NCBI GenBank assembly: GCA_945873305.1
Contig: CAMCCX010000001.1
Coordinates: 42,498-106,497, forward strand
Origin: Akkermansia muciniphila
Lineage (GTDB): Bacteria; Verrucomicrobiota; Verrucomicrobiia; Verrucomicrobiales; Akkermansiaceae
DNA length: 64,000 nucleotides
Direction of reading: 5' to 3'
Shown here: positions 30,370-47,743 of the stretch, piece after piece
Numbering within the stretch: the first letter of the stretch is position 1
Layout: each line of letters begins with the position of its first letter
Translations under genes and position numbers: made by a program
Notes under the pieces: model-generated
Seen by the model: only the letters and a program-made list of their open reading frames with translations
The model's database searches: none
Told to the model about the DNA's origin: nothing

Positions 30370-32742
30370 CTAACGAACGGGTGGGTTCCAACCGGGAAAT
30401 TCGGTCCGGAGTTTCTGACCGTATTTTTCAGCTTCGACGCGGTCGCCTTGTTGTTCAAGGGCTTGGATGAGCTTCCAAAGCGCGAGCGGCTTGAGCTCTT
30501 TGTCGTCGTGGAACTCGACGACGATGAGGTATTTTCCGGCGGCGGTCTTGGCGTCGCCGGCCGTGAGTTCGAGATCACCGACGAGGATGTTGAGGCCGGC
30601 GCTGGTGTGGCCTTGCGGGCGGAGGGCGAGCGCTTCGTCGGCGGCCTTGCGGGCTTCTTCGGGGCGCTTGAGGGCGAGCAGGGCGCGGCCGCGGTCGAGC
30701 AGGCCGTCGGCTTTCCAGCCGGAATTGTCCTCGATGGCGAGCACGTTGTTGGCCGCGGTGAGCGCGCCCTCGGGATCGCCGGCCCCGAGGCGGGCCTTGG
30801 CGAGGTAGCGCCAGACTTCCTTGGGGGTTTCGCGGGGTTCCTTGGGATTGGAAACGAGGGCGAGCGACTTGGCGGCGGAGGAGTAATCACCGGCGTTGTA
30901 GGATTGCATGCCGGACCACTGGATCGCCTGGTCGGGGATGTCGGCGTCATATTTTCCTTCGATGGCGAGGTTGATCTCGGCGGCGAGTTTCTGAGGATCT
31001 TGGGAGGCGAAGTAGCCGAGGATGAGGAGAAGTCCGGCGTGTTTGGCGTAAGCGTCCGGGCGGAGGGTGCGGGCCTTTTCGAGGTAGGCGACGGCGTCCT
31101 TGGCGACATTGGTTTTCACGAGTCCCCAGCCGATCCAGTAGTTGGCCTCGGCTTGCAGGTTGTCGCTGAGGTTTTTGACGTTTTTGAGGAGCCCTTGGTA
31201 GCGGACGATCATGTCCGGGATGTTGCTCTCGGCGCGGCGGAGGCGGGCGGACTCGAGCCAGCCGAACGAGTTGAGATCCTCCGGGATTCCGGCGGCGGTC
31301 AGGCGGTCGTAATCGGCGATGGCTTTGGCGGGCTCGGCGCTCTGGGCATAAGCGGTGGCGCGCTTGGCGATGGCGGAGGGGACCCGGGAATCGGTGGGAT
31401 ATTTGTTGATGAAGTCGCTGAACGAGCGGATCGCGCCTTGGGCGTCGCCGGCCTCGGCGAGGCACCAGCCGCGCTGATAGAGCAGGCCGGGGCGGTTTTT
31501 CTCGCTGATGACAGAGGCGTTGATCTCGCTGTAAACCTTGGCGGCGCCGGCGACGTCTTTGTTGGAGAACAAGGTTTCCGCCTTCATCATCAGGGCGGTA
31601 TGGATGCGGGGATCGAGCGGGCGGGACTTGCTGTAGAGTTGCAGGAACGCGTCCACTTGGTCGGGCAGGTGGCGGCCTTCGATTTGGAAAAAGCACAGCA
31701 GCCGGTAGTAGGAGGCTTGGAAGGCGGTGTCGGCCTCGGGCTGAACCAAGCGCTCGACTTCGCGGAAAAGCTGGAGCGCTTCGCTTGGCAGTTGCAGGCG
31801 CATGTAGGCGCGGCCGGCGATCATCAGGCGGTCGGCTTCCTTGTCACCGAGGGCCTTGGTGGTGCTGCGGCGGAAGATGTCGGTGACTTCGCGGTATTCT
31901 TTTTTGGCGAACAAATTGGCCATCAGCGCGGTCTGGGCGTCCGGGCTGAAGTCCTCCATGCCGGGCGTGCGAAGGATGAGCTGGAGGTATTTGTCGGCGA
32001 CGTCGGTCTTGCCGAGCTTGGTGGCGGTGAGCGACGCGTGCAGTGCCGCCTCGCCGCGGATTTTCGCGGAGGAGGGTCCGGCGATGACTTCTTCAAAAAG
32101 CGCGAGGGCTTCCGGGCCCTTGCCGGTCTTGAGTGACAGGTGGCCGAGCGCGACTTTGGCTTGCGCGGCATACAAACCGCTGCCGGGGTTTTCGACGATT
32201 TTTCGGAACGCGCTGATGGCCTCGCGATCGCGGCCGAGCAGGCGATAGCAGTTTCCGGCGAGGTAGGAGCCGCGGACTTGCTCTTCGGGTTTGGCGGAGT
32301 TCGCGGCGAAGCGCTCGAACATGGGCGCGGCGAAGGCGTATTCCGACTTGTTATAGTGGTCCGCGGCGAGCGTGTAGGCGGCGGCGGCGGCCCACTTGCC
32401 CTTGCCGTAGCGGTTGAGCAAGGTGCTGAAGCAGCGTTTCCCGTCGTCGATCTGGCCGGACTGGTAGTAGCTGTTTCCCAGGTACCACCAGGCCATTTCG
32501 GCGTTGGGATGGTTGGGAAAGGCGGTGAGGTATTCGGAAAATATCTGGGCGGCGCGCTGGAAGTAATCGACGCGGTTTTGCTGGGTGGTGCTCGCCTGGG
32601 CGGAGTCGTAGAGGTTTTTGCCGCGCAGGAAGAAGTCGTTGGAGGCATCCGGGCTCAGCGCGGGATCGACGGCCTCGGCCCGGGGGATCTGGGCGACGAC
32701 CGGACTGACGACGAGGATGAGAAGGGCGAGCGCGCGTTTCAA
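30370..32742 (-). CDS. Secreted TPR-repeat protein, last envelope gene of the ExbBD block
   Basis: This 790-aa protein has a signal peptide (MKRALALLILVVSPVVAQ). The mature chain is a long array of TPR-like helix pairs, for example NAEMAWWYLGNSYYQSGQID, SGLYAAQAKVALGHLSLKTG, LLYQRGWCLAEAGDAQGAIR, and ANYWIGWGLVKTNVAKDAVA, about 18-20 helical repeats in all. This is the same general type as the 978-aa protein at the other end of the block. Such periplasmic TPR proteins usually hold multi-protein machines together, comparable to CpoB/YbgF in the Tol system. It follows exbD by 43 bp. The link to the ExbBD machine is inferred from position. Confidence 0.8.
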   Translation of the reverse strand: MKRALALLILVVSPVVAQIPRAEAVDPALSPDASNDFFLRGKNLYDSAQASTTQQNRVDYFQRAAQIFSEYLTAFPNHPNAEMAWWYLGNSYYQSGQIDDGKRCFSTLLNRYGKGKWAAAAAYTLAADHYNKSEYAFAAPMFERFAANSAKPEEQVRGSYLAGNCYRLLGRDREAISAFRKIVENPGSGLYAAQAKVALGHLSLKTGKGPEALALFEEVIAGPSSAKIRGEAALHASLTATKLGKTDVADKYLQLILRTPGMEDFSPDAQTALMANLFAKKEYREVTDIFRRSTTKALGDKEADRLMIAGRAYMRLQLPSEALQLFREVERLVQPEADTAFQASYYRLLCFFQIEGRHLPDQVDAFLQLYSKSRPLDPRIHTALMMKAETLFSNKDVAGAAKVYSEINASVISEKNRPGLLYQRGWCLAEAGDAQGAIRSFSDFINKYPTDSRVPSAIAKRATAYAQSAEPAKAIADYDRLTAAGIPEDLNSFGWLESARLRRAESNIPDMIVRYQGLLKNVKNLSDNLQAEANYWIGWGLVKTNVAKDAVAYLEKARTLRPDAYAKHAGLLLILGYFASQDPQKLAAEINLAIEGKYDADIPDQAIQWSGMQSYNAGDYSSAAKSLALVSNPKEPRETPKEVWRYLAKARLGAGDPEGALTAANNVLAIEDNSGWKADGLLDRGRALLALKRPEEARKAADEALALRPQGHTSAGLNILVGDLELTAGDAKTAAGKYLIVVEFHDDKELKPLALWKLIQALEQQGDRVEAEKYGQKLRTEFPGWNPPVR

Positions 32743-32785
32743 GATGCGGGGAGCGTGGTCCGTTTCGGGACGTTTGCCAAGTGAA

Positions 32786-33205
32786 TCACTTGTCGGGTTC
32801 CGGGCGTTGGGTCGCGAAGGAAATGTTCCAAATCCCGGCTTTCTGGCAGGTGTCGATCACTTCGACGATGCGTTGATAGGCGACGCCGCCATCGCCGCGG
32901 ATCCGCACCGGCTGGTTCTCGAATTGCTTGGCGATGGCGGAAAGCTTGTCGAACAACTGCTGGCGGTCCACGGCGAGGCCCTCGACGCGGATCACGCCGT
33001 CGGCGAGCACGTTGATGATGATTTCCCCGCGGACGCGCTCGGGTTCCGCGCCTTCCTGGGCGGTGGGGACGGAGACGTTGAGCTCGGTCTCGGATTTGCT
33101 GAACTGCCAGCTGATGATGAAAAAGCTCAGCAGCAGGAGCAGGATGTCGATCATCGGTGCCAACTGGATGGCAATCGCTGGCGGCTGGCGATTGGAGAAT
33201 TTCAT
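32786..33205 (-). CDS. ExbD/TolR-family proton channel subunit (third copy)
   Basis: This 139-aa protein has one N-terminal TM helix preceded by the family motif IAIQLAPMIDILLLLLSFFI, where the Asp in PMID is the conserved proton-relay residue. The periplasmic part ends with the ExbD-type pattern QQLFDKLSAIAKQF and the strand PVRIRGDGGVAYQRIVEVID. The start at 33205 gives a normal ExbD length; the longer frame to 33748 is the shadow of the upstream exbB. It lies 11 bp after that exbB, forming a channel pair. Confidence 0.9.
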   Translation of the reverse strand: MKFSNRQPPAIAIQLAPMIDILLLLLSFFIISWQFSKSETELNVSVPTAQEGAEPERVRGEIIINVLADGVIRVEGLAVDRQQLFDKLSAIAKQFENQPVRIRGDGGVAYQRIVEVIDTCQKAGIWNISFATQRPEPDK

Positions 33206-33216
33206 CCCTGTGTCAA

Positions 33217-34050
33217 TTAGATGCCGTGCAGGTCGGGACGTTCCGCGGAGAGCGGGGAGGCGACGGGCATGGCGTAGTCTTCGCGGGCGCGTTGGACCGG
33301 ACTTGCGTAGGGCTGGACCGGTTGGCGCTCCAGTTGCGCGTGCAGGAGGATGACGAAGTGGGTGCAGGCCGCTTCGAGTTCGGAAACGTATTTTTGCACC
33401 CGGCCGCGGAAGATCGAGTAGAAGGCGAGCGCCGGAATGCTGATGGCGAGGCCGCCGGCGGTGGCGATGAGTGCTTTGGAAACGCCCTCGGCCAATCCCA
33501 TTTCGCGCACGCCCTGGACTTGGCCCGAGTAGATTTGCATGAAGGCCTCGATCATCCCGAACACGGTTCCGAGCAAGCCGACCATCGGGGCGATCGCGCC
33601 GATGTCGGCGAGATAGGTGATGCGGGAGGTGAGCATGCCGGCTTGGTGGGAGCCTTCGGTCTGGGCGACTTCGCGGACGTTTTCGAACGGGGTGCCCGGA
33701 TTGGCCGCCATGAAATCGAGGGTTTTCTGGGTGACGCGGGCCATGCACTCGTTGCGGCGGTGGCTGAGGGCGCTCAGGCCGAGGAAGTCGCGTTTGCGGA
33801 TCATCGTCTCGGCGCTGTTCATGAAGCGGTCGCTGACGATGGCGTTGCGGCGGACCGTCAGGAGGAAAATGAGGATCAACACGACGGTGATGACCGACAT
33901 CAGGCCGAGCGGATACATCATGATGCCGCCCTTCGCGAGGATTTCGAGGAAGTTCATTTCCTTGACGGCCGGGGCCGGAGTCTCAGCGGCGGCGGTGGCG
34001 ACGAGGGCGGAGCATAGAAACCCCGCGACTGATAAATGGCAGCACTTCAT
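33217..34050 (-). CDS. ExbB/TolQ/MotA-family channel subunit (second copy)
   Basis: This 277-aa protein begins with a signal-like segment (LSVAGFLCSALVATAAA) and then has three TM segments: GGIMMYPLGLMSVITVVLIL near 40-60, and the two pore helices ITYLADIGAIAPMVGLLGTV and ALIATAGGLAISIPALAFYS. The APMVGLLGTVFGMI and TAGGLAIxIPA motifs are diagnostic of ExbB/TolQ. The cleavable-signal start plus extra N-terminal segment is common in this PVC-type subfamily. It pairs with the ExbD 11 bp downstream. A 113-bp gap separates it from the toroid gene and includes a CCCGGGCCCGGG palindrome near 34093. Confidence 0.9.
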   Translation of the reverse strand: MKCCHLSVAGFLCSALVATAAAETPAPAVKEMNFLEILAKGGIMMYPLGLMSVITVVLILIFLLTVRRNAIVSDRFMNSAETMIRKRDFLGLSALSHRRNECMARVTQKTLDFMAANPGTPFENVREVAQTEGSHQAGMLTSRITYLADIGAIAPMVGLLGTVFGMIEAFMQIYSGQVQGVREMGLAEGVSKALIATAGGLAISIPALAFYSIFRGRVQKYVSELEAACTHFVILLHAQLERQPVQPYASPVQRAREDYAMPVASPLSAERPDLHGI

Positions 34051-34163
34051 GAAGATGGTGGGGAGTTTATTGATGCAAGGAGTGAAGGCAAGCCCGGGCC
34101 CGGGAGTGGGCGTTTTACGCTAGGAATCGGGCGATCCTTACATTTTTGATGCCACCGTCGGGC

Positions 34164-35702
34164 TCAGATGCCGGATTTTTCCTTGTTGCTGCCGCCGCTG
34201 GACTTGAGGAAACGATAATAGACTTCCAACATCAGGGTGCAGAGCGCGGTGCGGTAAACCTCGGTATCACCATGCATCTCGCGTTTGGTAGCTTTCCATG
34301 AGCCTTCCGGATTTTGGTTGTTGAGCAGTTGGTCGCGGAAGAGATCGTTGTAAAATTTCCAATCGTCGCCGCCCGCCTGCATCATGGCTTGGGATTCATA
34401 ATAATGGGCGTAAAGGTCGGAGTCCTCGGTGTTCCAATCGAACTTGGAGTTTTGCCTGATGTATTTCACGCCCTTGCGGGCTTCCGAAAGACCTCCCTTG
34501 CCCCACATCTGATGGCAAAGCACGCCCGCACCGGTCAGCGCGAAATACTTGCCGCCGCCAGCAATGGAGTTCGGACCATTATAGCCAAAACCTCCATTCT
34601 CATTCTGCATTTCGCCCAGATATCTAAGACCTTTGCTGACGGCTGAGTTCAGCCCTTTGTATTTAATGTTGGTGTGGCTGCATGCCTTGAGTGCTTGGAG
34701 CTGCCACCCGACGACTGAAGTGTCGGTGTGGCCATTTTCCGTAGCATAAAGGTACGACCAGCCGCCATTCTTGTGTTGGTTGTCGATGATGAACTGGCCG
34801 GCTTTTTCCGTGACTTCCATCAGGTTGGGGACTTCGATTTTCCCCTCTTTGCAGAACGTGGCAGCCTCTCCCAGGGCGTAGGTGGCGATGCCGTGCTCGT
34901 AACACCAGCTAGTGACAGTGAAGTTACCGGCCAGTTTCCCGTCGTTTTTCATCCCGAGATTCACCAAATAAACAATTCCCTTCATGCAAGAATCCCCAAA
35001 TTCCTCAGAGGCCGGGGTTTCGCAGTGGCCGAAATAGGCAAGCAGCACCAAACCCGTCATGGCTGGACTTCTTCCTGGCCAGGAACCATCGGGCTTTTGC
35101 TGGCTTTTCAGCCAGCGAAGCGACTTGAGAACCGCCTCTTCACAAGCCGGGGTGCCGCCGTATTCCTTGAGGCGGGCGAGACGGTCTTCCTTGGAGCAAC
35201 GCTTGCGCATGGTTTCCGGGATCAGTCCGAAGAGTTTGCCCGCGCCGCCGCCCATGCCGAGTCCGCCGCCCATGCCGGCGCCTTTGCCGAATCCCGCGCC
35301 CGTGCCGGAGCCACCGAGCCCGCCGGACATGCCGCCGCCGCTGAGCGAGCTGAGCGTGGACATTTCACCGAAGGTGTCGCCCTGCTCGGGGATGGCGTAG
35401 GAGGACGACGCGCCTTCGGCGAAGACCCGCTTGGAGTTGGTGGTCGGGGTGATTTGCGCGCGCTTTTTCTGCTGCACCTTGTGCTCGGCGCCGCGCTCGC
35501 CACCGCCGCCGCCGGGGGGCATGAAATCGACTTTTTTCTCGGGCTCCTTGATGATCTGGAACACCCAGAACCCGCCGATGACGAGCAGGACGACGTGGAA
35601 CAGCGCCGCGATCAGGAGCGAGCCGCCGCCGATCTTGGCCCAGAATCCCTGCTTCTTTTCCTCAACGTGGATGAGGTTTCCTTCGCTATCGTAAATTTCC
35701 AT
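34164..35702 (-). CDS. Membrane-anchored alpha/alpha-toroid (terpene-cyclase-like repeat) protein with TonB-like N-terminus
   Basis: The 512-aa chain has a short cytoplasmic start, one TM helix (about 27-51, LLIAALFHVVLLVIGGFWVF), and a segment EPEKKVDFMPPGGGGGERGA, the placement expected of a TonB/TolA-like anchor. A Gly-rich flexible linker spans about 120-157. Residues about 185-495 form the toroid, with QxxDGSW-type repeats: LRWLKSQQKPDGSWPGR, AGQFIIDNQHKNGGWSYLY, YLGEMQNENGGFGY and LLNNQNPEGSWKATKRE. These resemble squalene-hopene cyclase/prenyltransferase repeats, but I see no DxDD cyclase motif, so a binding or structural role is likelier than cyclisation. It lies between two ExbB/ExbD sets on the same strand. 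No TonB C-terminal domain is present. Confidence 0.85.
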   Translation of the reverse strand: MEIYDSEGNLIHVEEKKQGFWAKIGGGSLLIAALFHVVLLVIGGFWVFQIIKEPEKKVDFMPPGGGGGERGAEHKVQQKKRAQITPTTNSKRVFAEGASSSYAIPEQGDTFGEMSTLSSLSGGGMSGGLGGSGTGAGFGKGAGMGGGLGMGGGAGKLFGLIPETMRKRCSKEDRLARLKEYGGTPACEEAVLKSLRWLKSQQKPDGSWPGRSPAMTGLVLLAYFGHCETPASEEFGDSCMKGIVYLVNLGMKNDGKLAGNFTVTSWCYEHGIATYALGEAATFCKEGKIEVPNLMEVTEKAGQFIIDNQHKNGGWSYLYATENGHTDTSVVGWQLQALKACSHTNIKYKGLNSAVSKGLRYLGEMQNENGGFGYNGPNSIAGGGKYFALTGAGVLCHQMWGKGGLSEARKGVKYIRQNSKFDWNTEDSDLYAHYYESQAMMQAGGDDWKFYNDLFRDQLLNNQNPEGSWKATKREMHGDTEVYRTALCTLMLEVYYRFLKSSGGSNKEKSGI

Positions 35703-35744
35703 GGTGGCAGTGGATGAGTCGTTGTGCAGGCTGACGGATTGGGA

Positions 35745-36203
35745 TCACTCCGAGCTTCCGGCTTGAAAGCTGACGTTTGAGATTTTCGCGCGGCTCAGGG
35801 CGTCGAGAACATCAACCACCCTTTCATAGCGCGCAAGGTCGTTGGCGTAAATGGTCACCAGCACTTCGGATTTCGAGGCGTCGCTGCTTTCCCGCAGTTG
35901 GTTCAGGTTGCTGGCGAATTCCGGCAGTAGCTTGGCCTCCGGGGTGTCGAGCGGGTCGTCATTGAGATAGACTTGGCCGTCGTCCTCGATGCGGACGGCG
36001 ATTTCGTCCGGAGTGACGATCCCTTCCTTGAGTTCCACCGTGCCGGGCAGCTTGGTGACATGGGCGTTTTCCACCTGGATGTCACTGGCTTGGACGATGA
36101 AGAAAAGCAGGATGACGAAGACCACGTCGATCATCGGCGCGATCTGGAAGCCGAGGTTGACTTCGGCGTTGGCCTTCCGGCGGTGACGGCGGTTTCGTTT
36201 CAT
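35745..36203 (-). CDS. ExbD/TolR-family proton channel subunit (second copy)
   Basis: This 152-aa protein starts with a strongly basic cytoplasmic tail (MKRNRRHRRKANAEV), then the channel helix with LGFQIAPMIDVVFVILLFFI, where the Asp of PMID is conserved. The periplasmic domain has the typical EIAVRIEDDGQVYLNDDPLD and a closing DLARYERVVDVLDALSRAKI. It is 7 bp from the preceding exbD, so two different ExbD proteins are made side by side. Two ExbD paralogues often form the heterodimer inside one ExbB pentamer; that is inference here. Confidence 0.92.
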   Translation of the reverse strand: MKRNRRHRRKANAEVNLGFQIAPMIDVVFVILLFFIVQASDIQVENAHVTKLPGTVELKEGIVTPDEIAVRIEDDGQVYLNDDPLDTPEAKLLPEFASNLNQLRESSDASKSEVLVTIYANDLARYERVVDVLDALSRAKISNVSFQAGSSE

Positions 36204-36210
36204 GGGCGGG

Positions 36211-36645
36211 TCACTTGTTGGAGGAGGCGAAGGCGATGTCGGCGATGCCGGCTTCCCCGATGAGGTTCATGATTCGCTGGATCTCGCCGGCGGGCACGGC
36301 GGCGTCGCCGCGGACCACGATGCGGAGCTTGTCGTCGCGCTTGTGACTTTCCTGGAGGATGGGAACGACGTCGGGCCAGTTGTTATATTCGCGGTCGTCC
36401 ACGACGAGGATGCCCTTGTTGGATTTGGCGTCGAAACGGACGTTCACGGCCATTTCGTGCTTGGCCATTTCCGGCTCGCGCGCCTTCGCGTTGGGCGACA
36501 CTGGCAGGACGATGTTCTTGTCCACTTTGAGCACCTCGGCGGAGGTGATCATGACGAAGAACACGAGCAGCACGAGCAGCACGTCGATCATCGGAGCGAT
36601 CTGGAACTCAGGTTCCCCGTCTCCACCACCACCACCACCGGCCAT
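36211..36645 (-). CDS. ExbD/TolR-family proton channel subunit (first copy)
   Basis: This 144-aa protein begins with a Gly-rich start (MAGGGGGGDG) and the motif FQIAPMIDVLLVLLVFFVMI, containing the conserved Asp. The periplasmic domain has MAVNVRFDAKSNKGILVVDD and ends RIMNLIGEAGIADIAFASSNK-like, as ExbD does. It is 46 bp downstream of the first exbB and 7 bp upstream of the second exbD. Confidence 0.92.
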   Translation of the reverse strand: MAGGGGGGDGEPEFQIAPMIDVLLVLLVFFVMITSAEVLKVDKNIVLPVSPNAKAREPEMAKHEMAVNVRFDAKSNKGILVVDDREYNNWPDVVPILQESHKRDDKLRIVVRGDAAVPAGEIQRIMNLIGEAGIADIAFASSNK

Positions 36646-36691
36646 AGGATCAGTTAATTAAAGGGTTGTTAATAAAGAGGCGGAGCGAGGC

Positions 36692-37471
36692 TCAGCCTTC
36701 GGGGGCTTGGACCCAGTTCGGCAAGGCCGCGTAGGTCTCTTCCTGGCCGACGTCGGCGTCCTTCAGGTAATCGTAAGGCGCGTTGCGGAACAGGTGTTCG
36801 GTTTCTTCGTGAAGATGATGGACCGCTCCCTGCAATTTGTTGCGCAGGAAATAGAAGGCCATGAACGCGGGGATGGCGACCAGCAGTCCGGTGGCGGTGG
36901 CGACGAGCACCTCGCCGATGTGGCCGGCGAGTTCGCCCACGCCGCTGGAAAGTCCGGCGGTGCCGAGGCTGCCGAAGGCTCCCTTCATCCCGCCGACGGT
37001 TCCGAGCAGTCCGATCATCGGCGCGCAAACCCCGATAACTGACAGATAGTTGATGCGGGTTTGGAGGGTGGAGTTCACTTTTTCAACGGTGGAGTAGAGC
37101 GCGTCCTCGGTGGCTTCCTTGCCGTAGCCGACGGAGCCGAGACCGGCGCGCATCACTTCGGCGAAGGGGCTGAAGCTCGCTTTCATCGCTTGATAGGCGC
37201 CCACGTAGTCGCCGGCGCGGAACAGGTCCTGCGCCATGGTGACGTCTTCCTGTGGCGTCATTTTCTTGCTGTTGGTGCGCAACCAGATGTCGATGATCAG
37301 CCAGACCATGCCGATGGAGAACAACAACAAGAGGTGCATGACCCAACCGCCTTCGAGGTAGGTGTCGATGAGGGTTTTCTTGGTGACGCCGGCTTTGGCT
37401 TCAGCTCCGAAGGCAGTCATCGGAAGCAACACGAGAGCGGCGTAGACGCCCTTTTGGATGGTGTTTTTCAT
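36692..37471 (-). CDS. ExbB/TolQ/MotA-family channel subunit (first copy)
   Basis: This 259-aa protein carries a signal-like start (GVYAALVLLPMTAFGAEAKA), then TM1 (GGWVMHLLLLFSIGMVWLII), and the pore pair INYLSVIGVCAPMIGLLGTV and VLVATATGLLVAIPAFMAFY. The APMIGLLGTVGGM and TGLLVAIPA motifs are the ExbB signature. The start at 37471 fits the family; the longer frame to 37975 is upstream shadow. It heads the exbB-exbD-exbD cluster. The second exbB at 33217 is a clear paralogue. Confidence 0.93.
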   Translation of the reverse strand: MKNTIQKGVYAALVLLPMTAFGAEAKAGVTKKTLIDTYLEGGWVMHLLLLFSIGMVWLIIDIWLRTNSKKMTPQEDVTMAQDLFRAGDYVGAYQAMKASFSPFAEVMRAGLGSVGYGKEATEDALYSTVEKVNSTLQTRINYLSVIGVCAPMIGLLGTVGGMKGAFGSLGTAGLSSGVGELAGHIGEVLVATATGLLVAIPAFMAFYFLRNKLQGAVHHLHEETEHLFRNAPYDYLKDADVGQEETYAALPNWVQAPEG

Positions 37472-37515
37472 GGTGTGTGTGGTGTGATTTTGAATGGGAA
37501 AAGGAGACGGGGAAA

Positions 37516-38394
37516 TCATTTCAAGCTTTCTAGCCGCTTGCGGGCTTCCTCGGCGACCAAGGTTCCGGTCGCCTCCCGGAGGGACGAGTTGAGAAGGGCG
37601 ACGGCTTCCTCGCGGCGGTCGAGGGTGACGAGGAATTCCGCGGCCCTGAGCTCGGCGACGCTGTTGAGAACCATGCCGCCTGACGGATAGATGCAGGGAA
37701 CCATGAGATAGGCTTCGAGGGCGGCGGCATTCTGTTGGAGGGCTTTGGCCGGGTCCGGGTCGCGCTTCAGTTCGCTGAGAAGGTTGCCGCGGTAGAAGGC
37801 CGCGTAGGCACAGACATCGGCTGGCAGGTTGTCGGTGGTGAGGTCGCCGAGGGCGACTTGGCGGTCCTCGGCGCTGGTGGAAGCGGGGAGGAGCAGGGCC
37901 TTGCCGAGCGAAACGAAGGGATCGATGCCTTGGGCGGGCGTGGCGTCGGAGATTTCCTTGCCGATCTCGACGCACTTGGCGGAATTTCCGTTCACCGCGT
38001 GGGCGACGAGCGAGGCGCGGGCGGCGTCGAGCCAGAAATTCCCGGGAATCTTGGCGGTGATGCGTTGCGCGGCGACGATGGGTTCGAGCAGCTTGAGCGC
38101 GTCGGCCGGTTTGCCCATCAGCAACAGGGCGATCCCCGGATTGAGCTCGGCGGGTTTCTCACCGAACACGTGGTCGGCCATGGCGAGCGGGAAGGACTGC
38201 CCGGGAGTGAAACTCTCGAAGGCGGCGGTGATGGTGAGCTTGTCACCTTGCAGCGCCACGGAGGAAATCGGCACCGAGCGGCCGTTCTGGAAGACGATGC
38301 GGATCGGTTCCGCAGCGCTTGCCCATGACAGTGGCAAGGTGGCGGCCGCGCATGCCAGCAGGGCTGACCGGAATGTGTGCGAGGGAAGCATCAT
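37516..38394 (-). CDS. Secreted protein of unknown function in the ExbBD block
   Basis: This 292-aa product has a signal peptide (RSALLACAAATLPLSWASAA). An N-terminal beta region (IRIVFQNGRSVPISSVALQG, then DKLTITAAFESF) is followed by helical, TPR-like sequence from about residue 80 (GIALLLMGKPADALKLLEPI, CAYAAFYRGNLLSELKRDPD, LRAAEFLVTLDRREEAVALL). I do not recognise the family. It is 12 bp after the 978-aa TPR gene and 44 bp before exbB, so it is very likely co-transcribed with both. Confidence 0.75.
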   Translation of the reverse strand: MMLPSHTFRSALLACAAATLPLSWASAAEPIRIVFQNGRSVPISSVALQGDKLTITAAFESFTPGQSFPLAMADHVFGEKPAELNPGIALLLMGKPADALKLLEPIVAAQRITAKIPGNFWLDAARASLVAHAVNGNSAKCVEIGKEISDATPAQGIDPFVSLGKALLLPASTSAEDRQVALGDLTTDNLPADVCAYAAFYRGNLLSELKRDPDPAKALQQNAAALEAYLMVPCIYPSGGMVLNSVAELRAAEFLVTLDRREEAVALLNSSLREATGTLVAEEARKRLESLK

Positions 38395-38406
38395 GGGTGG
38401 GGAAAA

Positions 38407-41343
38407 TTACTTGGCTAACTCGACGGCCTTCTTGGCGCGCGCGGTGTTCTTGAGTTTCGGGTTGGCGGCGAGCGCCTTGAGCGTTTCGTCGGCGAGGGTG
38501 GTGTCACCCAGGTCGGTCGCGGTTTCATAGGCCTGCCAGTAGGCTTCGGCGCAGACGTCGGGGACGCTTTGATAGGCGATGTAAACCCGCTGGTAAGTGC
38601 CGTGGGCTTTCTTGAGCAACTCGGCCTTGGCGTCCGCACCCGCGGCCTTGTCGGCTTGCGTGCGGTAGATCCGGGCCAAAATGAGATAGGCTTTCCCCGC
38701 CGATTCGCCGCGGAACATTTTGTCGCCGACGACCTCGAGGGCGAGCTTCTCGGCGGGCTCGAACTGGCCGAGCGCGGCGAGCGCCTCGAGTTTGCCGAGG
38801 GTGGTTTCCTTGAAGCGGGACATGCCGGGATTGGTGTCCAAGGCGGTTTCGAAAATTTTCAACGCCGCATCCGGCTGCTTGCGCGCCATGGCGATGTAGC
38901 CCAGACCGACGGGGCCGGCGTCGGCGAACATGCCGTCCTTGTAGCGCTCGACGAGCCGTTTGAACATGGCTTCCGCCTCGTCCAGGCTGCCGAGCTTGAG
39001 CAGAATGTCGCCGGAGACGGAGAGCAGCGCGGGGCTGAGGACCGACGGGTCCTTGGCGTTGATGGTGGCGATGCCTTTCAGATAGAGATCCGAGCGGTCG
39101 GCGCGCTTTAACAGTTGGGCGAGGCGGGCGCGGGCGTAGTAGAGCCGGGCGTTGGTGGTCGCGTTTTCCTGGGTGCCGATCGCTTTGTTGAGGATGTCGA
39201 CGAGCTGTTTGTCCAGGGCGTCGATGTCGACCTCCGCCGCTTTCTTGCGCGGGACGAGGGTTTTGACCATCTCGTCGATGAGGAACTCGACTTGCTCGGC
39301 GGACGGGTTGGCGACTCGGGATTTGAGGGCGTTGGCGAGCATTTCGGCCGCTTCCGCGCCTTTGCCTTCGCGGGCTTTCATTTTGGCGACCCACGAGGCG
39401 GAAAGCAGGGCCAGCGAGCTGTCCGGCTTGCGTTGGAGAAACTCGCTGTGGAGCGCGGCGATGGCGGCGTAGTCCTTGTTGCCGGAGAGCATCGTGGTGG
39501 CGGAATCCAGCGCGTATTGAATCACGTCGTCGGAACTATCAGACCAAACGGCGTTCTTGTAGGCGTCGAGCGCGAGCTTTTGGAACTTCACCAGCTCGTC
39601 GGGCTTGTCGGAGGTTTTTTTCTTATAAGTGTCGGCAAGCAGGCAATACATCGAGCCCGCGGAGGTGTCGTCGGGATGCTGGCCGAGGAAGTTGGACAGG
39701 TCCTTGATGATCTTGTCGGACTGGTCCACGTCCTTGTCATTGAAGTCGATGAACGAGAGCCGGTAGCGCATGTCGCCGGCGTAGCGGCCGTCCGGGAATT
39801 TGGAGAGGTATTCTTTGCAGGACTTGAGGGTTTCCTTGTAATTGTTCGTCAGGAAATTCGACATCGCCACGTAGTACATGGCGTTTTCCGCCAGCGGGCT
39901 GTTGGGGAAGTTCTTGAGGAACTTGGTGAAAATGGGAGTGGCTTCCTTGAAGTTGCCCTCTTGGAAAATCGCCAGTCCTTGGAAGAAGGTGTAGCGGTCG
40001 AGACTCTCGGACTGGGGGAACTTGGTTTCGAGACTGCGATAGAACTTGCCGACTTCGGGCCAGTTTCCGCTCTGGACGAGCACCTCGCCGGCGAGCGTGC
40101 CGACTTGCTCGACATTGTCGGCATCGGGATATTTCCGCAGGTAGGCGTCGCAGAGGACTTTGATCTCGGGGATGTTCTTGAGCTTGTTGAGAATGACGAT
40201 TTCCGCGTAAGCGGCGGCTTTGGCGTCGGGCGCGGAGGCGTATTTGTTGCGGAGCGTGCGGAAGCAGACCAGGGCTTCCTCGTGGCGGTCAAGGTAGTAG
40301 AGGCAGCGGCCGCGGCGCATCAGCAGGGCGGCGTCCAGATCGGCCTTTTCCTCGACGGCGACCAGCGCTTTCTCGGCCAATTCGATGGCGGGCTTGAGAT
40401 TGCCGACCAATTCGGAAGCGGAGGAGCGTTGGCCGAGCGGCTTGGTCTTTTCCAGTTCGACGCGGGCTTCGAGGATTTTCAAATCCTTGCGCTGGGCATC
40501 CAGAGCGGTTTTCTGGATCTCCACGATCTGGCTGCGCGGCGGGACGGACCGGTAAATCACGAGCGCCGACTCGTAGGCTTGGGCTCCCACCAGTTCGTCG
40601 CCACGGACGATGACCTGGTTGGCATACCAAGCGAGCGCGTCGCGCACTCCAGCCTGGTTGCTCAGGCGGTCCAGATAGAGAATGAGGTCTTCGATTTTGC
40701 CGATGTCGGCGAGCAGCCCGATGACTTCCACCGCGGCGGTGGTCTGTTGGGGCGAGCGGATGTCCGAGCCCATCAGGCTCTTGAAAACGACGAGGGCTTC
40801 CTCGCGTTTGCCGAGGTCGTTATACACCTGGCCGAGCCAGAGACCGGCTTCCGAGCGGAATTTCGGGTCTTGCGCGGCGAGCTTGAGCGCCTCGATGGCG
40901 CGCTCTTTTTTCTCCGGCGTGGCTTGATCGATGCACGCGCGGCCGACCCCCAGATAGCTGCGGCTGGCGTATTCGCCTTTGGGAAATCTTTTCAAATAGT
41001 CGGTGAATCCGGCTTCGGCCTCGACCGGCTTGGCGGCCAGCAGGTTTCCCAGACCGATATTGAAATAAAGGAGCTCCAAGGGCGCATCCTTGTTAGGACC
41101 GAGGGCTTTGAGCAGTTCTTCGATTTTGGCGACTGCTGTGAGATAATCTTTTGCTGCAAAAGCGGCTTCGGCCTCGCCGAAGAGGCGGTTCAAAGTCGCC
41201 GGGGCGACAGGCGCCGCCGGAGCGGCCGGAGGTTCCTGGGCTTCCACGCGGGATACCGGGATGACGCCGAGGAGGGAACAAGCCAAAAGCGCGGACCATC
41301 GCGCGGAAATTTGACGGGATTTTCTGTGGTTTTTTAGCGTCAT
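38407..41343 (-). CDS. Large secreted TPR-repeat protein, first gene of the ExbBD block
   Basis: This 978-aa protein starts with a long signal peptide (basic MTLKNHRKSRQ, then WSALLACSLLGVIPVSRVEA). The mature part is a continuous TPR solenoid with units such as LELLYFNIGLGNLLAAKPVE, ASRSYLGVGRACIDQATPEK, LDRYTFFQGLAIFQEGNFKE and NAMYYVAMSNFLTNNYKETL, plus weaker repeats to the end. I start at 41343 because it places the basic and hydrophobic parts of the signal peptide correctly; a Met at 41376 is possible. It is the first gene of the co-directional run and resembles periplasmic scaffold proteins of Tol-Pal or gliding machines. Function is inferred from context only. Confidence 0.8.
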   Translation of the reverse strand: MTLKNHRKSRQISARWSALLACSLLGVIPVSRVEAQEPPAAPAAPVAPATLNRLFGEAEAAFAAKDYLTAVAKIEELLKALGPNKDAPLELLYFNIGLGNLLAAKPVEAEAGFTDYLKRFPKGEYASRSYLGVGRACIDQATPEKKERAIEALKLAAQDPKFRSEAGLWLGQVYNDLGKREEALVVFKSLMGSDIRSPQQTTAAVEVIGLLADIGKIEDLILYLDRLSNQAGVRDALAWYANQVIVRGDELVGAQAYESALVIYRSVPPRSQIVEIQKTALDAQRKDLKILEARVELEKTKPLGQRSSASELVGNLKPAIELAEKALVAVEEKADLDAALLMRRGRCLYYLDRHEEALVCFRTLRNKYASAPDAKAAAYAEIVILNKLKNIPEIKVLCDAYLRKYPDADNVEQVGTLAGEVLVQSGNWPEVGKFYRSLETKFPQSESLDRYTFFQGLAIFQEGNFKEATPIFTKFLKNFPNSPLAENAMYYVAMSNFLTNNYKETLKSCKEYLSKFPDGRYAGDMRYRLSFIDFNDKDVDQSDKIIKDLSNFLGQHPDDTSAGSMYCLLADTYKKKTSDKPDELVKFQKLALDAYKNAVWSDSSDDVIQYALDSATTMLSGNKDYAAIAALHSEFLQRKPDSSLALLSASWVAKMKAREGKGAEAAEMLANALKSRVANPSAEQVEFLIDEMVKTLVPRKKAAEVDIDALDKQLVDILNKAIGTQENATTNARLYYARARLAQLLKRADRSDLYLKGIATINAKDPSVLSPALLSVSGDILLKLGSLDEAEAMFKRLVERYKDGMFADAGPVGLGYIAMARKQPDAALKIFETALDTNPGMSRFKETTLGKLEALAALGQFEPAEKLALEVVGDKMFRGESAGKAYLILARIYRTQADKAAGADAKAELLKKAHGTYQRVYIAYQSVPDVCAEAYWQAYETATDLGDTTLADETLKALAANPKLKNTARAKKAVELAK

Positions 41344-43178: not shown

Positions 43179-46100
43179 TCAGTGGAAATCATGCGACCGC
43201 GCGGCGTGCTCCGGCTCGATCCCGGACAGCGGCTCGATGTGGAATACATAGACAGTGGGCTGGTCGCCCTCGGAGCGCTGGAGAATGCCCTCCACCCGGA
43301 GAAACGGCTCGCTGGTGATCACGCCCCGCAGGCGGTGAAACGTGGTTTTCGGGACGAAGAGATTGGCGATGCCGGTCTCGTCTTCGAGGGAAATGAAACA
43401 ATGTCCCTTGGCGGTGCCGGGCCGCTGGCGGCAGATCGCCATGCCGGCGACGGTGACGGGAATGCCGTGCGGGAGGTTTTGTAAATCGCTGGCGCGGAGA
43501 ATGTTGCGGGTGCCTTGATTTTCCCGCCAGAGAAATATCGGGTGCGGGCCGGTGCTGGCTCCTTGCGTGGCGAAGTCGGCCGACAAGCGCTCCGCCGCCG
43601 ACATGACCGGCAGAATCCCGTGCCGGACCGGGCGGCGCGGCAGGAGCAAATCATCATGCAAGGGCAGCTCGACTTGCCACAAGGCTTCGCGCCGGTGGCT
43701 GATTTCCGGCAGCCCGTTCAAGGCGCCGGCCTGGGCGAGCGCGCGTTTTTCCTTCGCGCCCGGCCGCACCCGCGCGAGGAAATCCTCCAGCGAGGAAAAC
43801 TCCGATTTCTCCCTTTCGCCGGTGATCCGGCCCGTCGTCGCGGCGGACAAGCCTTTGATGCGGTGCAGGCCGAGGCGCAGGGTGCCGGCGCTTTCCACTT
43901 CCGTTAGTTCGTTGCTCCGGATGCAGGAAACCGGCCTGATGCGGACGCCGTGGCGTTGCGCGTCCTGCAGCAGCGTGTTGACCGAGTAGAAACCCATCGG
44001 CTGGTGGTTGACGAGTCCGGCGTAGAATTCCGCCGGGTGGTGGACCTTGAGCCAGCAACTCGCGTAGGCGATGAGCGCGAAGGAAATGGCGTGGCTCTCC
44101 GGAAATCCGTAAAGCGCGAATGAGCCGATAGACGCGACGATTTTCTCCTGCACCTCGGCCGCGACTCCGCGCTCGCCCATCCGCAGGCGGAGCTTGGCGG
44201 TGACGCTTTCCATGCGGTCGTCGCTGCGCTTGAAGGCCATCGCCCGCCGGAGCTCGTCGGCCTCCGCGCCGCTGAATCCGGCCACCGCCATCGCCATCCG
44301 CAGCACTTGTTCCTGGAACAACGGGACGCCTAACGTGCGCGCCAGGATTTCCTCGCAGGCGGGGTGGATGCAGTCGATTTTCTCGCGGCCGTTGCGCCGG
44401 TTCAGGTAGGGATGGACGAGGTCGCCCACGATCGGGCCGGGCCGGATGATGGCCACCTGGATGGCGAGATCGTAAAACGTCCGCGGCCGCATGACCGGCA
44501 AGGTGGCCATCTGCGCGCGGCTTTCCACTTGGAAAGTGCCGATGGTGTCGGCGCGGGAAAGCATCTCGAAGACCGCCGGATCGTCCATCGGGATCGCCGC
44601 CAGATCGAGCGGCTGGCCGAGGCGGGAGCGGATTTCCAAGGCGTGCTCGAGCGCGGCTAACATGCCGAGTCCGAGCAGGTCGATTTTCACCATCCCCATG
44701 TCCTCGCAGTCGTCCTTGTCCCACTGGACGACGGTGCGCCCCGGCATGGTGGCGGGTTGCAACGGCACCACCGCGTCGAGCCCGTGGTCGCAGACGATCA
44801 TCCCGCCGGAGTGCTGGCCGAGGTGGCGCGGCATCCCGAGCACGGCATGATAGAGATGGCAAAGCGCCGGCAGCCGCGGGTGCGACGGCGGCAAAATCCC
44901 CGCGACGCGCTCCTCGAACGCCGCCTTTCCGCCCTCGGAAGCAGACGCGCTGCCGGAAAACCGCTCCGCCACCGAGGGCGGGAAACCGAGCACCTTGCTC
45001 ATTTCCCGGAACGCGGATTTCGGGCGGTAAGTGATGACGTTGGCGGTCATCGCCGCGTTGCGCGCGCCGTATTTTTTGAAAACGTGCTGGATCACCTCCT
45101 CGCGGCGCTCGCCGGAGGGGAAGTCGATGTCGATGTCCGGCCAGCTCTTGCGGTTTTCGGATAGAAACCGCTCGAACAACAGCCCGCCGCCGACCGGATC
45201 GACGGCGGTGATGCCCAGCGCGTAACAGACCACCGAGTTCGCCGCCGAGCCGCGCCCCTGGCAGAGGATGCCGCGCCCGCGGGCGAACTCGACGAGGTCG
45301 TGGACGATGAGGAAATAACCGGGAAATCCCAAGCGGTGGATCATCGCCAGCTCGTGCTCCAACTGGCTTTTCACCCGCTCGCTGCAAATCCCGTAACGCC
45401 GCGACGCGCCGGCGTAGGCGTGGCGGCGCAGCAGCGTCGTCTGCTCGGTGAGCGAAAGCGGATTCCCCCGGCCGTCCGGGAAATCCGGGAAGCGGTAGTC
45501 GAGGTTTTCCAAGGTGAAGCCGATGCGGTCCGCGAGGCGCAGCGTGTTTCCAACAGCTTCTGGCAGGTCGGAAAACAGCGCGGCCATTTCGCGCGGGGAT
45601 TTCAAATGCCGCTCGCCGTTGGGCGCGAGCAGGCGGCCCGCGCGGTCGAGCGGCAGGTGGTGGCGGAGACAGGCGAAGGCGTCCGCCAGCCGGCGGTCGC
45701 CGCGCGTCGCGTGCAGCGGCGCGTTGCTGGCTAACAGCGGCAGCCGGAGATGCGCTGCCAGATCGACGAGCTCGCGGTTCAGCCGGCCGTCATCCCGCAG
45801 GCCGTGGCGGTGGATTTCCACATAGACGTTGCCGCGGCCGAAAAGCCCGGTCAAACGCTCGGCGGCGCGCAGCGCGCCCTGACGGTCGTTCGCTAACAAG
45901 GGTCGGCAGACCGGTCCGTCGCGGTCGCCGGTGAGGGCGAGCAGATGGTTTCCTGTTGGAGAAATCCCGTGATCTCCGCCCGGCAGCAGGTGGCGGTCCG
46001 TGAGATGCCGCGACAGCGCCCGGTAGCCGTCGCGCGAGGCGCAGAGCACCGGAAAGCGCGTCCCGTCCGGCAGGTCGAGCAGGCTGCCGACCACCGCGCG

Positions 46101-46283
46101 GACGCCGCATTCCTTGGCCGCGTGGTGGGCGCGGGCGGAGCCGTAAAAGCCCGCCCGGTCGGTGATGGCGATGGTGCCGTAGCCGAGTTCCGCGGCGCGG
46201 CGGACCATGGCTTCCGGCTGGCTCGCGCCTAGCAGGAACGAGAAGGCGGAATGCGCGTGCAGCTCTGCGAACTCCGGTTTCAT
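43179..46283 (-). CDS. dnaE2: Error-prone DNA polymerase III alpha (DnaE2/ImuC)
   Basis: This 1034-aa C-family polymerase does mutagenic translesion synthesis with ImuB. The N-terminal PHP domain starts FAELHAHSAFSFLLGASQPE. The palm has PDIDIDFPSGERREEVIQHV with the catalytic acidic cluster and the FxSENRKSWPD lead-in. Later motifs are GRGSAANSVVCYALGITAVD, QVAIIRPGPIVGDLVHPYL and GFPESHAISFALIAYASCWL; a C-terminal OB fold follows (IPVTVAGMAICRQRPGTAKG). Length suits DnaE2 rather than replicative DnaE1. The start at 46283 overlaps the imuB stop (ATGA), so the two are translationally coupled. Confidence 0.95.
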   Translation of the reverse strand: MKPEFAELHAHSAFSFLLGASQPEAMVRRAAELGYGTIAITDRAGFYGSARAHHAAKECGVRAVVGSLLDLPDGTRFPVLCASRDGYRALSRHLTDRHLLPGGDHGISPTGNHLLALTGDRDGPVCRPLLANDRQGALRAAERLTGLFGRGNVYVEIHRHGLRDDGRLNRELVDLAAHLRLPLLASNAPLHATRGDRRLADAFACLRHHLPLDRAGRLLAPNGERHLKSPREMAALFSDLPEAVGNTLRLADRIGFTLENLDYRFPDFPDGRGNPLSLTEQTTLLRRHAYAGASRRYGICSERVKSQLEHELAMIHRLGFPGYFLIVHDLVEFARGRGILCQGRGSAANSVVCYALGITAVDPVGGGLLFERFLSENRKSWPDIDIDFPSGERREEVIQHVFKKYGARNAAMTANVITYRPKSAFREMSKVLGFPPSVAERFSGSASASEGGKAAFEERVAGILPPSHPRLPALCHLYHAVLGMPRHLGQHSGGMIVCDHGLDAVVPLQPATMPGRTVVQWDKDDCEDMGMVKIDLLGLGMLAALEHALEIRSRLGQPLDLAAIPMDDPAVFEMLSRADTIGTFQVESRAQMATLPVMRPRTFYDLAIQVAIIRPGPIVGDLVHPYLNRRNGREKIDCIHPACEEILARTLGVPLFQEQVLRMAMAVAGFSGAEADELRRAMAFKRSDDRMESVTAKLRLRMGERGVAAEVQEKIVASIGSFALYGFPESHAISFALIAYASCWLKVHHPAEFYAGLVNHQPMGFYSVNTLLQDAQRHGVRIRPVSCIRSNELTEVESAGTLRLGLHRIKGLSAATTGRITGEREKSEFSSLEDFLARVRPGAKEKRALAQAGALNGLPEISHRREALWQVELPLHDDLLLPRRPVRHGILPVMSAAERLSADFATQGASTGPHPIFLWRENQGTRNILRASDLQNLPHGIPVTVAGMAICRQRPGTAKGHCFISLEDETGIANLFVPKTTFHRLRGVITSEPFLRVEGILQRSEGDQPTVYVFHIEPLSGIEPEHAARSHDFH

Positions 46284-47743
46284 CGGTAAATCCCCTCGAG
46301 TGTCCAGCGGTCCGGCGTTTGAAAAACGAGCCGCAACAGATGGCGGCTCGCCAGCTGGACGTCCCACTCCAGCCGCTGCCACGCTCCGGCCGGTTCCCAC
46401 CACGCGCCGGACGCGGGGAAGGGGCCGCGGCGGTCGGTGATCTCGCCCGGGTGCGGGCCGTTGAGCAACGCCATCGGCCACGGTTGGCGGCCGCGCGATT
46501 CGTAGGCCACCGCGATTTCGCGGGGCGGGCGGAACCGGTGCAAAGGTAGCGGACAGTCCGGATAGGTCGGCGGAGCGGAAACGGCCGCCGGGTGGAGTGT
46601 GAAAGAGTCCGGGCGAAATGACTCCGCCGGCACCGGGATGCCGACGCGGCCCGGGCCTAGCAGCGCTTCGAGTTTCGCCAGCGTTTCCGCCCAGCGCTCC
46701 GGCTGCGGCAGGTGCCGGCCGAACCATTCACGCTGCGCCGCCGTGGCGAAGCTCGTCTCGGCATCAAGCTGCAACGCCGCCACCGCCGCGTCGGGCCGCA
46801 GCGATTCCAACAAGGTTTGCAGCGGTGCTAACATCCCCTCGACCGCGGCCTGCGGCTCGGGCAGCCGGATCCGCCGCGCCAGCTCGCAGCCGGATTCCAG
46901 GATGAGTCGGAAATCCAGGCTGCTCGCGGCCAAATGGCGTGACGCGAGCCGGCCGGCGAGGGTGTGCAGCAGCCGTTTGAGGGCGAAAACCACGGGCTCG
47001 AGCGAGACCACGGCGTCCTCGAAATCGAACGCCTGCGCGAAGGATTCCGGCGGCCGGTGGAGCCGCAGCAGGCGGCAGGATTTGCCGTGGAGAAGGTCGT
47101 GCCATTTCCCCGGTTCCGGACCCACCCGCTCGACCAGCGCTTGCCGCGGCAGTTTCATGAAATCCCCCAGCGTCCGCAGCCCCCACAAATCCAGCAGCGC
47201 GAGCGCAGCGGAATCCAGCGAGATCGAACCGAGCGCGCCGAGCGGCAACGGCGCGAGATCCGCCGGAGAAACGATGCGTCCCCGCGTGGCCTCGTGCCGG
47301 GCTGCCAGGTTGGCGAGGTCGGGCGTGTCCGCACGGGCGTGATGGATTTCCGCGCCAGCCAGCGACAACCCGTCCAACGCCGCGCACACCGGCGCCGTCC
47401 GGCATGATAGATCGAGCGTCACGCAATCCGCCGCCGTCATCTCGACATCCGCGGTGAGCGATTCGCCGAGGAAAACGAGCTCGTCCCGCAAGGCGGTTTC
47501 CGCCGCCAAATCGCGCGGGATCACCCGCAGGTCCGGGCAGCGGACGAGCGCCCGGTTGAGCGGCCAGCCGGGCCCGATGCCCGCCGTCCGCGCGGCTTGG
47601 TTGATAGAAAGCAGCGGCAGTTTTTCCTGCGGGTCGCGCGGCCCGCGCACGGCGAGGATGGCGCAGGGGAAATCCCGCGCCGCGGGCTGACTCCGCAAGG
47701 CGGCGGCGACCGGGAAATCCGGGAGATGGAGCGCGGCGAACAT
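46280..47743 (-). CDS. imuB: ImuB, non-catalytic Y-family polymerase homologue
   Basis: This 487-aa protein follows the Y-family order but lacks the catalytic acids. The start MFAALHLPDFPVAAALRS has no DxD pair, and the usual SIDE position reads DCVTLDLSC. This is the known state of ImuB, which bridges DnaE2 to the beta clamp. Other segments: INQAARTAGIGPGWPLNRAL near 55, SISLDSAALALLDLWGLRTL with LGDFMKLPRQALVERVG as the HhH-like part, and the ImuB C-terminal region (PLHRFRPPREIAVAYESRGR, DRWTLEGIY). The start at 47743 is chosen over a longer upstream shadow. It sits between imuA and dnaE2. Confidence 0.93.
   Translation of the reverse strand: MFAALHLPDFPVAAALRSQPAARDFPCAILAVRGPRDPQEKLPLLSINQAARTAGIGPGWPLNRALVRCPDLRVIPRDLAAETALRDELVFLGESLTADVEMTAADCVTLDLSCRTAPVCAALDGLSLAGAEIHHARADTPDLANLAARHEATRGRIVSPADLAPLPLGALGSISLDSAALALLDLWGLRTLGDFMKLPRQALVERVGPEPGKWHDLLHGKSCRLLRLHRPPESFAQAFDFEDAVVSLEPVVFALKRLLHTLAGRLASRHLAASSLDFRLILESGCELARRIRLPEPQAAVEGMLAPLQTLLESLRPDAAVAALQLDAETSFATAAQREWFGRHLPQPERWAETLAKLEALLGPGRVGIPVPAESFRPDSFTLHPAAVSAPPTYPDCPLPLHRFRPPREIAVAYESRGRQPWPMALLNGPHPGEITDRRGPFPASGAWWEPAGAWQRLEWDVQLASRHLLRLVFQTPDRWTLEGIYR

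Follow-up and report, generated by a model that had tools for sequence, protein, structure and literature searches.

A toroid-headed protein as the probable transducer of an ExbB/ExbD motor in Akkermansia muciniphila

Background

Ton and Tol are the textbook cases in which proton force is sent across the periplasm. Both TonB-ExbB-ExbD and TolA-TolQ-TolR join an ExbB/ExbD-type proton channel to a transducer with a single transmembrane (TM) helix that carries a histidine, and this arrangement recurs in the block of nine genes described here. That more such systems exist beyond these two is shown by a family of vWA proteins reported in 2025 (PMC12204202). The PVC vWA force-transducer operon contains a TPR gene, a TolQ-like gene and two different TolR-like genes, and its last gene encodes a protein with a TM helix, a disordered linker, a globular head and a motor-binding His, which was modelled on the motor (Williams-Jones et al. 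2025, PMC12204202). The motor-binding motif of TonB and TolA, SHLS, is given in a passage of PMC12905483 as Ser-3X-His-6X-Leu-3X-Ser.

The locus in Akkermansia muciniphila resembles the vWA operon of PMC12204202 in that a TPR gene, a TolQ-like gene and two heterologous TolR-like genes lie upstream of the transducer candidate here too, and in that this protein has a His at the motor-binding position of its TM helix. It differs in that the head is an alpha/alpha toroid according to Pfam, the predicted model and Foldseek, with no vWA domain, in that a further gene, SEC, is inserted between TPR1 and ExbB1, and in that the toroid protein keeps only the S/A-x3-H part of SHLS. From Ton and Tol it is set apart by the lack of a TonB or TolA C-terminal domain match in the toroid protein (Pfam, NCBIfam), by the presence of two different ExbDs and a large TPR protein in the same gene set and, for Tol-Pal, by the lack of a TolB or Pal match among the nine genes. 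Among the open-licence PMC papers on ExbB/ExbD that were listed we recognised none on a toroid-headed transducer, and the pertinent passage of a table of transport genes in PMC13274419 holds only Ton-type annotations. Since its closest relative is the PVC vWA force-transducer operon (PMC12204202), the machine type is not wholly new, and the toroid version is best read as one with a toroid head in place of the vWA head.

Results

The window, that is, the whole stretch of DNA analysed (64,000 nucleotides), contains nine ORFs on the minus strand between 41343 and 30370, separated by 7 to 113 bp (Table 1). The first-pass annotation had described nine co-directional genes in this order and with these gaps, and both are confirmed by the ORF check of the window, Pfam and NCBIfam. 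Pfam places MotA_ExbB in both ExbBs, ExbD in all three ExbDs (E 1.3e-17 to 1.3e-26) and many TPR models in TPR1 and TPR2; neither Pfam nor NCBIfam finds a TonB, TolA, TolB or Pal family match among the nine proteins. The genes look like two machines rather than one, module A (TPR1, SEC, ExbB1, ExbD1, ExbD2 and the toroid protein) and module B (ExbB2, ExbD3 and TPR2). Because the neighbours on both sides, an aminotransferase gene (42694-41420) and an arginine decarboxylase gene ending at 28391, share the minus strand, the ends of the operon are not fixed by strand alone. Promoter-like and terminator-like sites are no more frequent in the block than in shuffled sequence, and no clear signal came from searches for RNA families and tRNAs or from folding the 113-bp gap between the toroid gene and ExbB2. 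ExbB1 has an alternative start, an ATG at 37519. Elsewhere in the window, at 43179-46727, a 1182-aa ORF resembles, by eye only, an error-prone DNA polymerase of the DnaE2 type.

Table 1. Features of the nine-gene block and of the toroid protein, in window coordinates
Feature	Position	Strand	Evidence
TPR1 (978 aa), secreted TPR protein, first gene of module A	38407..41343	-	Pfam TPR models; signal peptide by eye
SEC (292 aa), signal peptide, small beta domain, TPR-like helices	37516..38394	-	AlphaFold2 and Foldseek
ExbB1 (259 aa), module A proton-channel subunit	36692..37471	-	PF01618 MotA_ExbB, E 2.5e-24
ExbD1, first of two different module A ExbDs	36211..36645	-	PF02472, E 1.3e-17; PMID motif
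ExbD2, second module A ExbD	35745..36203	-	PF02472, E 1.1e-20; PMID motif; family alignment A5
Probable toroid-headed transducer (512 aa)	34164..35702	-	Pfam SQHop_cyclase_C, E 3.9e-7; model; Foldseek
Transducer TM helix, residues 28-49, with A32-x3-H36	35556..35621	-	Homologue alignment and model
H36 codon, counterpart of the SHLS-motif His	35595..35597	-	Alignments; motif spacing from a passage of PMC12905483
Glycine-rich linker, residues 50-160, opening with a shared VDFxPGGGG-type stretch	35223..35555	-	pLDDT < 50 for 51-160
Alpha/alpha toroid head, residues 161-512	34167..35222	-	AlphaFold2 and Foldseek
ExbB2, proton-channel subunit of the separable module B	33217..34050	-	PF01618 MotA_ExbB, E 5e-27
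ExbD3, module B	32786..33205	-	PF02472, E 1.3e-26
TPR2 (790 aa, TTG start), secreted YbgF/CpoB-like TPR protein, module B	30370..32742	-	NCBIfam tol_pal_ybgF

The motor proteins have the expected features of their families, namely the ExbB/TolQ and ExbD/TolR domains, the Thr-bearing channel segments of the ExbBs (GLLGT and ATA(T/G)GL, by eye) and the ExbD Asp, with a PMID motif in each of the three ExbDs, and ExbB1 can be aligned to solved TolQ/ExbB chains. The Trp of TolQ TM1 is kept in ExbB1. Because it is missing from seven of nine aligned ExbBs of vWA and PA14 operons, being present in just two, the contrast in this residue between ExbB1 and ExbB2 was dropped as proof of which ExbB binds the toroid protein.

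The toroid protein is built like TonB and TolA, with one TM helix, a glycine-rich linker and a periplasm-type head. AlphaFold2 models the TM helix at low confidence (pLDDT 53-69), leaves residues 51-160 of the linker disordered and is confident of the helical head over approximately residues 171-490 (pLDDT blocks of 83-97), for which the best Foldseek matches are squalene-hopene cyclase (E 8.5e-6), other terpene cyclases, AprG and GH76. A32 and H36 are invariant in all 38 homologues aligned, out of 120 matches listed, and their spacing is that of the Ser-3X-His half of SHLS as given in the passage of PMC12905483. The full motif is incomplete in proteins with this kind of anchor and linker, which we call the drive module: S or A, rarely T or G, followed by the His is kept, Gly or Ala usually takes the place of the Leu, and Val or Ile that of the final Ser. 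The head has the alpha/alpha toroid fold of squalene-hopene cyclase and other such toroids, with QW-like repeats that we take to correspond to those of squalene-hopene cyclase-type proteins. DxDD, the catalytic motif of squalene-hopene cyclase, is absent in 38/38 homologues, which makes terpene-cyclase chemistry unlikely, and a role of this kind was set aside after that test. Without DxDD and tethered by a motor-type anchor, the toroid is probably a binding head rather than a cyclase. Six Cys of the head (residues 169, 187, 227, 284, 341 and 396; gene at window 34164-35702) are also invariant in 38/38 aligned homologues and may form periplasmic disulphides. Among the best 80 of 557 loci, the named relatives that carry a toroid protein all belong to the Verrucomicrobiota, with Akkermansiaceae and Verrucomicrobiaceae predominating.

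Not every toroid protein has the anchor His. Our comparison covers 94 toroid proteins in which a TM helix can be seen and no two heads are identical, and leaves out 11 with no clear TM or less than 1 kb upstream and one with an identical head. Within this set the His is present in 42 of 42 proteins encoded next to motor genes, none of 34 His-free paralogues has an ExbD directly upstream, and 18 proteins have the His and no ExbD directly upstream. On the toroid tree, however, the His changes only three times, so that its link to motor adjacency is a contrast between few clades without phylogenetic power (sign test, median p 1). When all head types are taken together, the His is found in 66 of 67 motor-adjacent drive proteins, some contigs being in this set twice; the exception is a vWA protein (L208) in which Tyr replaces it. 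Two further motor-adjacent toroid proteins, which the drive profile had missed (L061 and L210), have it as well. A large class of toroid paralogues (loci L062-L092 and L264-L278) has a His-free anchor of the NSTISS type and no ExbD directly upstream.

Both large TPR proteins score above the cut-off of NCBIfam tol_pal_ybgF (107.1 bits for TPR1 and 139.6 bits for TPR2, cut-off 90.1) and in this respect resemble YbgF/CpoB, from which they differ in being about three times as long as the 263-position CpoB model or more and in having no TolB or Pal match beside them. SEC matches no Pfam family. In its AlphaFold2 model (mean pLDDT 90) a helix resembling a signal peptide is accompanied by a small beta domain and more helices, and the best solved-structure match found by Foldseek is a TPR protein (E 1.4e-3). 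SEC homologues occur in some vWA and PA14-like operons, and going by the model SEC is probably a periplasmic adaptor.

Matches confined to the first approximately 165 positions of the toroid profile lead to proteins that have the same anchor and linker and other heads. In all 14 proteins selected, whose heads are toroid, vWA or PA14-like, the His stands at the shared position, and the linker is common to them as well. Pfam recognises the head, at E up to 0.01, as VWA_3 in 11 and as PA14 in 11 of 67 drive-module proteins; the remaining assignments come from profiles built from few members and are weaker. Drive-module matches were found in at least 40 of the 194 genomes of our phylum sample, a lower bound because the profile is short. 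Homologues of ExbB, the ExbDs and TPR1 accompany vWA-type heads, and TPR1 homologues lie upstream of motor genes with toroid, vWA and PA14-like heads alike. Where a TM-His protein is encoded next to the motor and 7 kb or more of upstream sequence is available, two ExbDs, an ExbB and TPR1 are all present in 26 of 28 loci with a toroid head, 16/16 with a vWA head, 3/3 with a PA14-like head and 0/1 with an unassigned head, and SEC is matched in 27, 5, 1 and 0 of these loci, respectively. Four genomes of one family (G073, G088, G124 and G196) contain between 9 and 13 weak drive-module matches apiece, PA14-like heads being among them, which may reflect an expansion of the module. At L117:6955-10775 a drive protein with a vWA head comes immediately after a toroid protein of 755 aa that has a long extension at its N-terminus.

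In a survey independent of the transducer we searched 115 genomes with ExbD2 alone (alignment A5) and read one match in each of the 30 best-matching genomes. By script, the gene after ExbD2 encodes a protein with a TM His in 20 of these loci, 15 times of vWA type (with weak profile scores of 17-68 bits), twice toroid, once PA14-like and twice unassigned, while three of the other ten have a next gene without the His and seven have no ORF in reach. Two of these ten (L242 and L245) are the same loci as L178 and L186, which carry a vWA-type protein with the TM His and so add two to the scripted 20, leaving two of the 30 with a different next gene and six without a suitable ORF in reach. In this survey vWA is thus the common head, and both toroid heads (the window's genome and G027) come from the window's order.

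On the best tree of 65 ExbB rows the head label needs six changes, and toroid against the rest needs three, all forced by starred branches, in a tree made by a quick method and with long branches, among them L210, one of the toroid placements. The sequences compared in this tree suggest more than one exchange of heads on a single motor lineage.

The source genome (3.06 Mb, 171 contigs, 95% complete) has five ExbB and six ExbD matches. Its only TonB_C match is a TonB gene on contig C60, which lies beside its own ExbB and ExbD. On contig C24 a 431-aa protein (L101:3455-5858) with a C-terminus that by eye resembles TolA/TonB is encoded upstream of an ExbB-ExbD pair; it matches no Pfam family and has S-x3-N instead of S-x3-H in its TM helix. 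TolB_N has no match in the genome, and OmpA-domain matches are found on C23 and C5, with a sub-threshold one on C8. We therefore agree with the first-pass annotation, which had pointed to the lack of tonB, tolA, pal and tolB in the block and had proposed a machine distinct from Ton and Tol, since the TonB and TolA-like genes of this genome sit in other operons. A Ton or Tol identity of the block was set aside, there being no family match in the nine proteins, a TonB on C60 and no TolB_N. The genome has one ExbD2 match versus two toroid transducers, the second of which, with an S-x3-H in its TM helix, lies on contig C86 (L104:9460-11223), a contig of 12,972 bases in which no ExbB or ExbD match is found. 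By eye, genes of respiratory complex I are near it.

Discussion

What, then, would the toroid protein do beside these motor genes? Judged from sequence comparisons, we give a probability of about 0.72 to the reading that it is the driven transducer of the ExbB1-ExbD1-ExbD2 proton channel and that the products of 41343-34164 form one force-transducing machine. A role as the driven partner had been proposed for it by the first-pass annotation and gains support from the TM His at TonB/TolA spacing, from the recurrent gene order and from the occurrence of other heads beside the same motor genes. In such a machine an ExbB1 pentamer and an ExbD1/ExbD2 heterodimer would form the proton channel, and proton flow would work the anchor through H36, by analogy with the way in which related motors drive TonB and TolA. 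The glycine-rich linker would span the periplasm, and the toroid head, probably with its cavity, would bind a partner located at the cell wall or outer membrane and transmit force to this envelope partner, with the secreted TPR1 and SEC acting as periplasmic adaptors. ExbB2, ExbD3 and TPR2 would then probably constitute a second, separable proton-channel unit.

All nine genes could instead encode a single machine whose one toroid protein is worked by both ExbB/ExbD sets together with the two TPR scaffolds, as the first-pass annotation had assumed, and the common direction and short gaps of the nine genes speak for this. An ExbD3 match at E < 1e-40 is found in 23 of 25 same-genus genomes. Fourteen of these 23 also have a toroid match that starts at profile position 17 or before, and here the two halves are adjacent in seven genomes and on different contigs in seven. 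The other nine have module B, yet no toroid match starting before profile position 28 among the matches listed; all 14 of their toroid matches with a visible TM helix are His-free, and no ExbB or ExbD was found near their toroids in the loci read. We also looked downstream of module A in 30 named loci where 5 kb or more of sequence follows. Module B adjoins it in 11, lies at a distance of 3.5 kb in one and is missing from 18, counts in which fragmented assemblies may conceal some adjacency. The order ExbB2-ExbD3 followed by TPR2 is kept in 11 of 12 module B loci read, 11 of which were picked for not adjoining module A and are split from it by design, and no other ExbB of the tree shares more than 31% identity with ExbB2. 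From the nine genomes that have module B without such a toroid anchor and the 18/30 module A loci that lack it, it follows on these sequence data that module B is probably an ExbB-ExbD-TPR unit in its own right, found next to module A in some relatives only. We regard the single nine-gene machine as very unlikely and have set it aside, as module B is separable both in same-genus genomes and at module A loci; this comes close to the separate expression of the two ExbB/ExbD sets that the annotation itself had named as counter-evidence. The toroid gene is found after ExbB-ExbD-ExbD in many relatives.

Two other explanations concern module A itself. The toroid protein might be a membrane-anchored enzyme or scaffold that shares the operon and is not driven by the motor, as the existence of paralogues with His-free anchors away from ExbBD and a fold common to enzymes (terpene cyclases, GH76, epimerases) would allow. 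A plain anchor, however, would have no need of the His and linker, which are common to vWA and PA14-like proteins with unrelated heads, and together with the absence of DxDD from the homologues this makes such a role unlikely in our view. Module A might also serve uptake in the manner of Ton, with its head taking over TonB's part in opening an outer-membrane transporter, given that ExbB/ExbD with a TM-His transducer is the Ton layout; but the toroid head has no TonB_C match and a TonB-ExbB-ExbD set of the genome's own is encoded at C60, and we consider this highly improbable.

Returning to the toroid protein as a driven transducer, we may ask whether its motor serves it alone. We put forward tentatively, as a reading with somewhat less than even chances, that one Verrucomicrobiota chassis (TPR1, SEC, ExbB, ExbD1 and ExbD2) drives several anchors with different heads. 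One drive module, a TM S/A-x3-H plus glycine linker, would then bear toroid, two types of vWA and PA14-like heads, some of them encoded within the operon and the rest at distant sites. In 24 genomes picked for toroid or drive-module matches we counted 64 drive-module matches (E up to 1e-10) versus 33 ExbD2 matches (E up to 1e-25), with more of the former in 18 of the 24, the two cut-offs being different, some of the ExbD2 matches lying in tandem in the same operon and a drive match in G011 being a short frame. In G009, which is nearly complete, a single ExbD2 match stands against six drive matches, whose heads are of the toroid, vWA and PA14-like types. These counts fit a motor shared by several heads, but the orphan heads could also use other ExbBD sets.

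Conclusions

The block adds another head class, the alpha/alpha toroid, to the proton-powered transducers. If several heads do share one motor, the drive module, with its anchor His and linker, would be a simple sequence tag for new force-driven proteins and would offer a testable route to what such systems act on.
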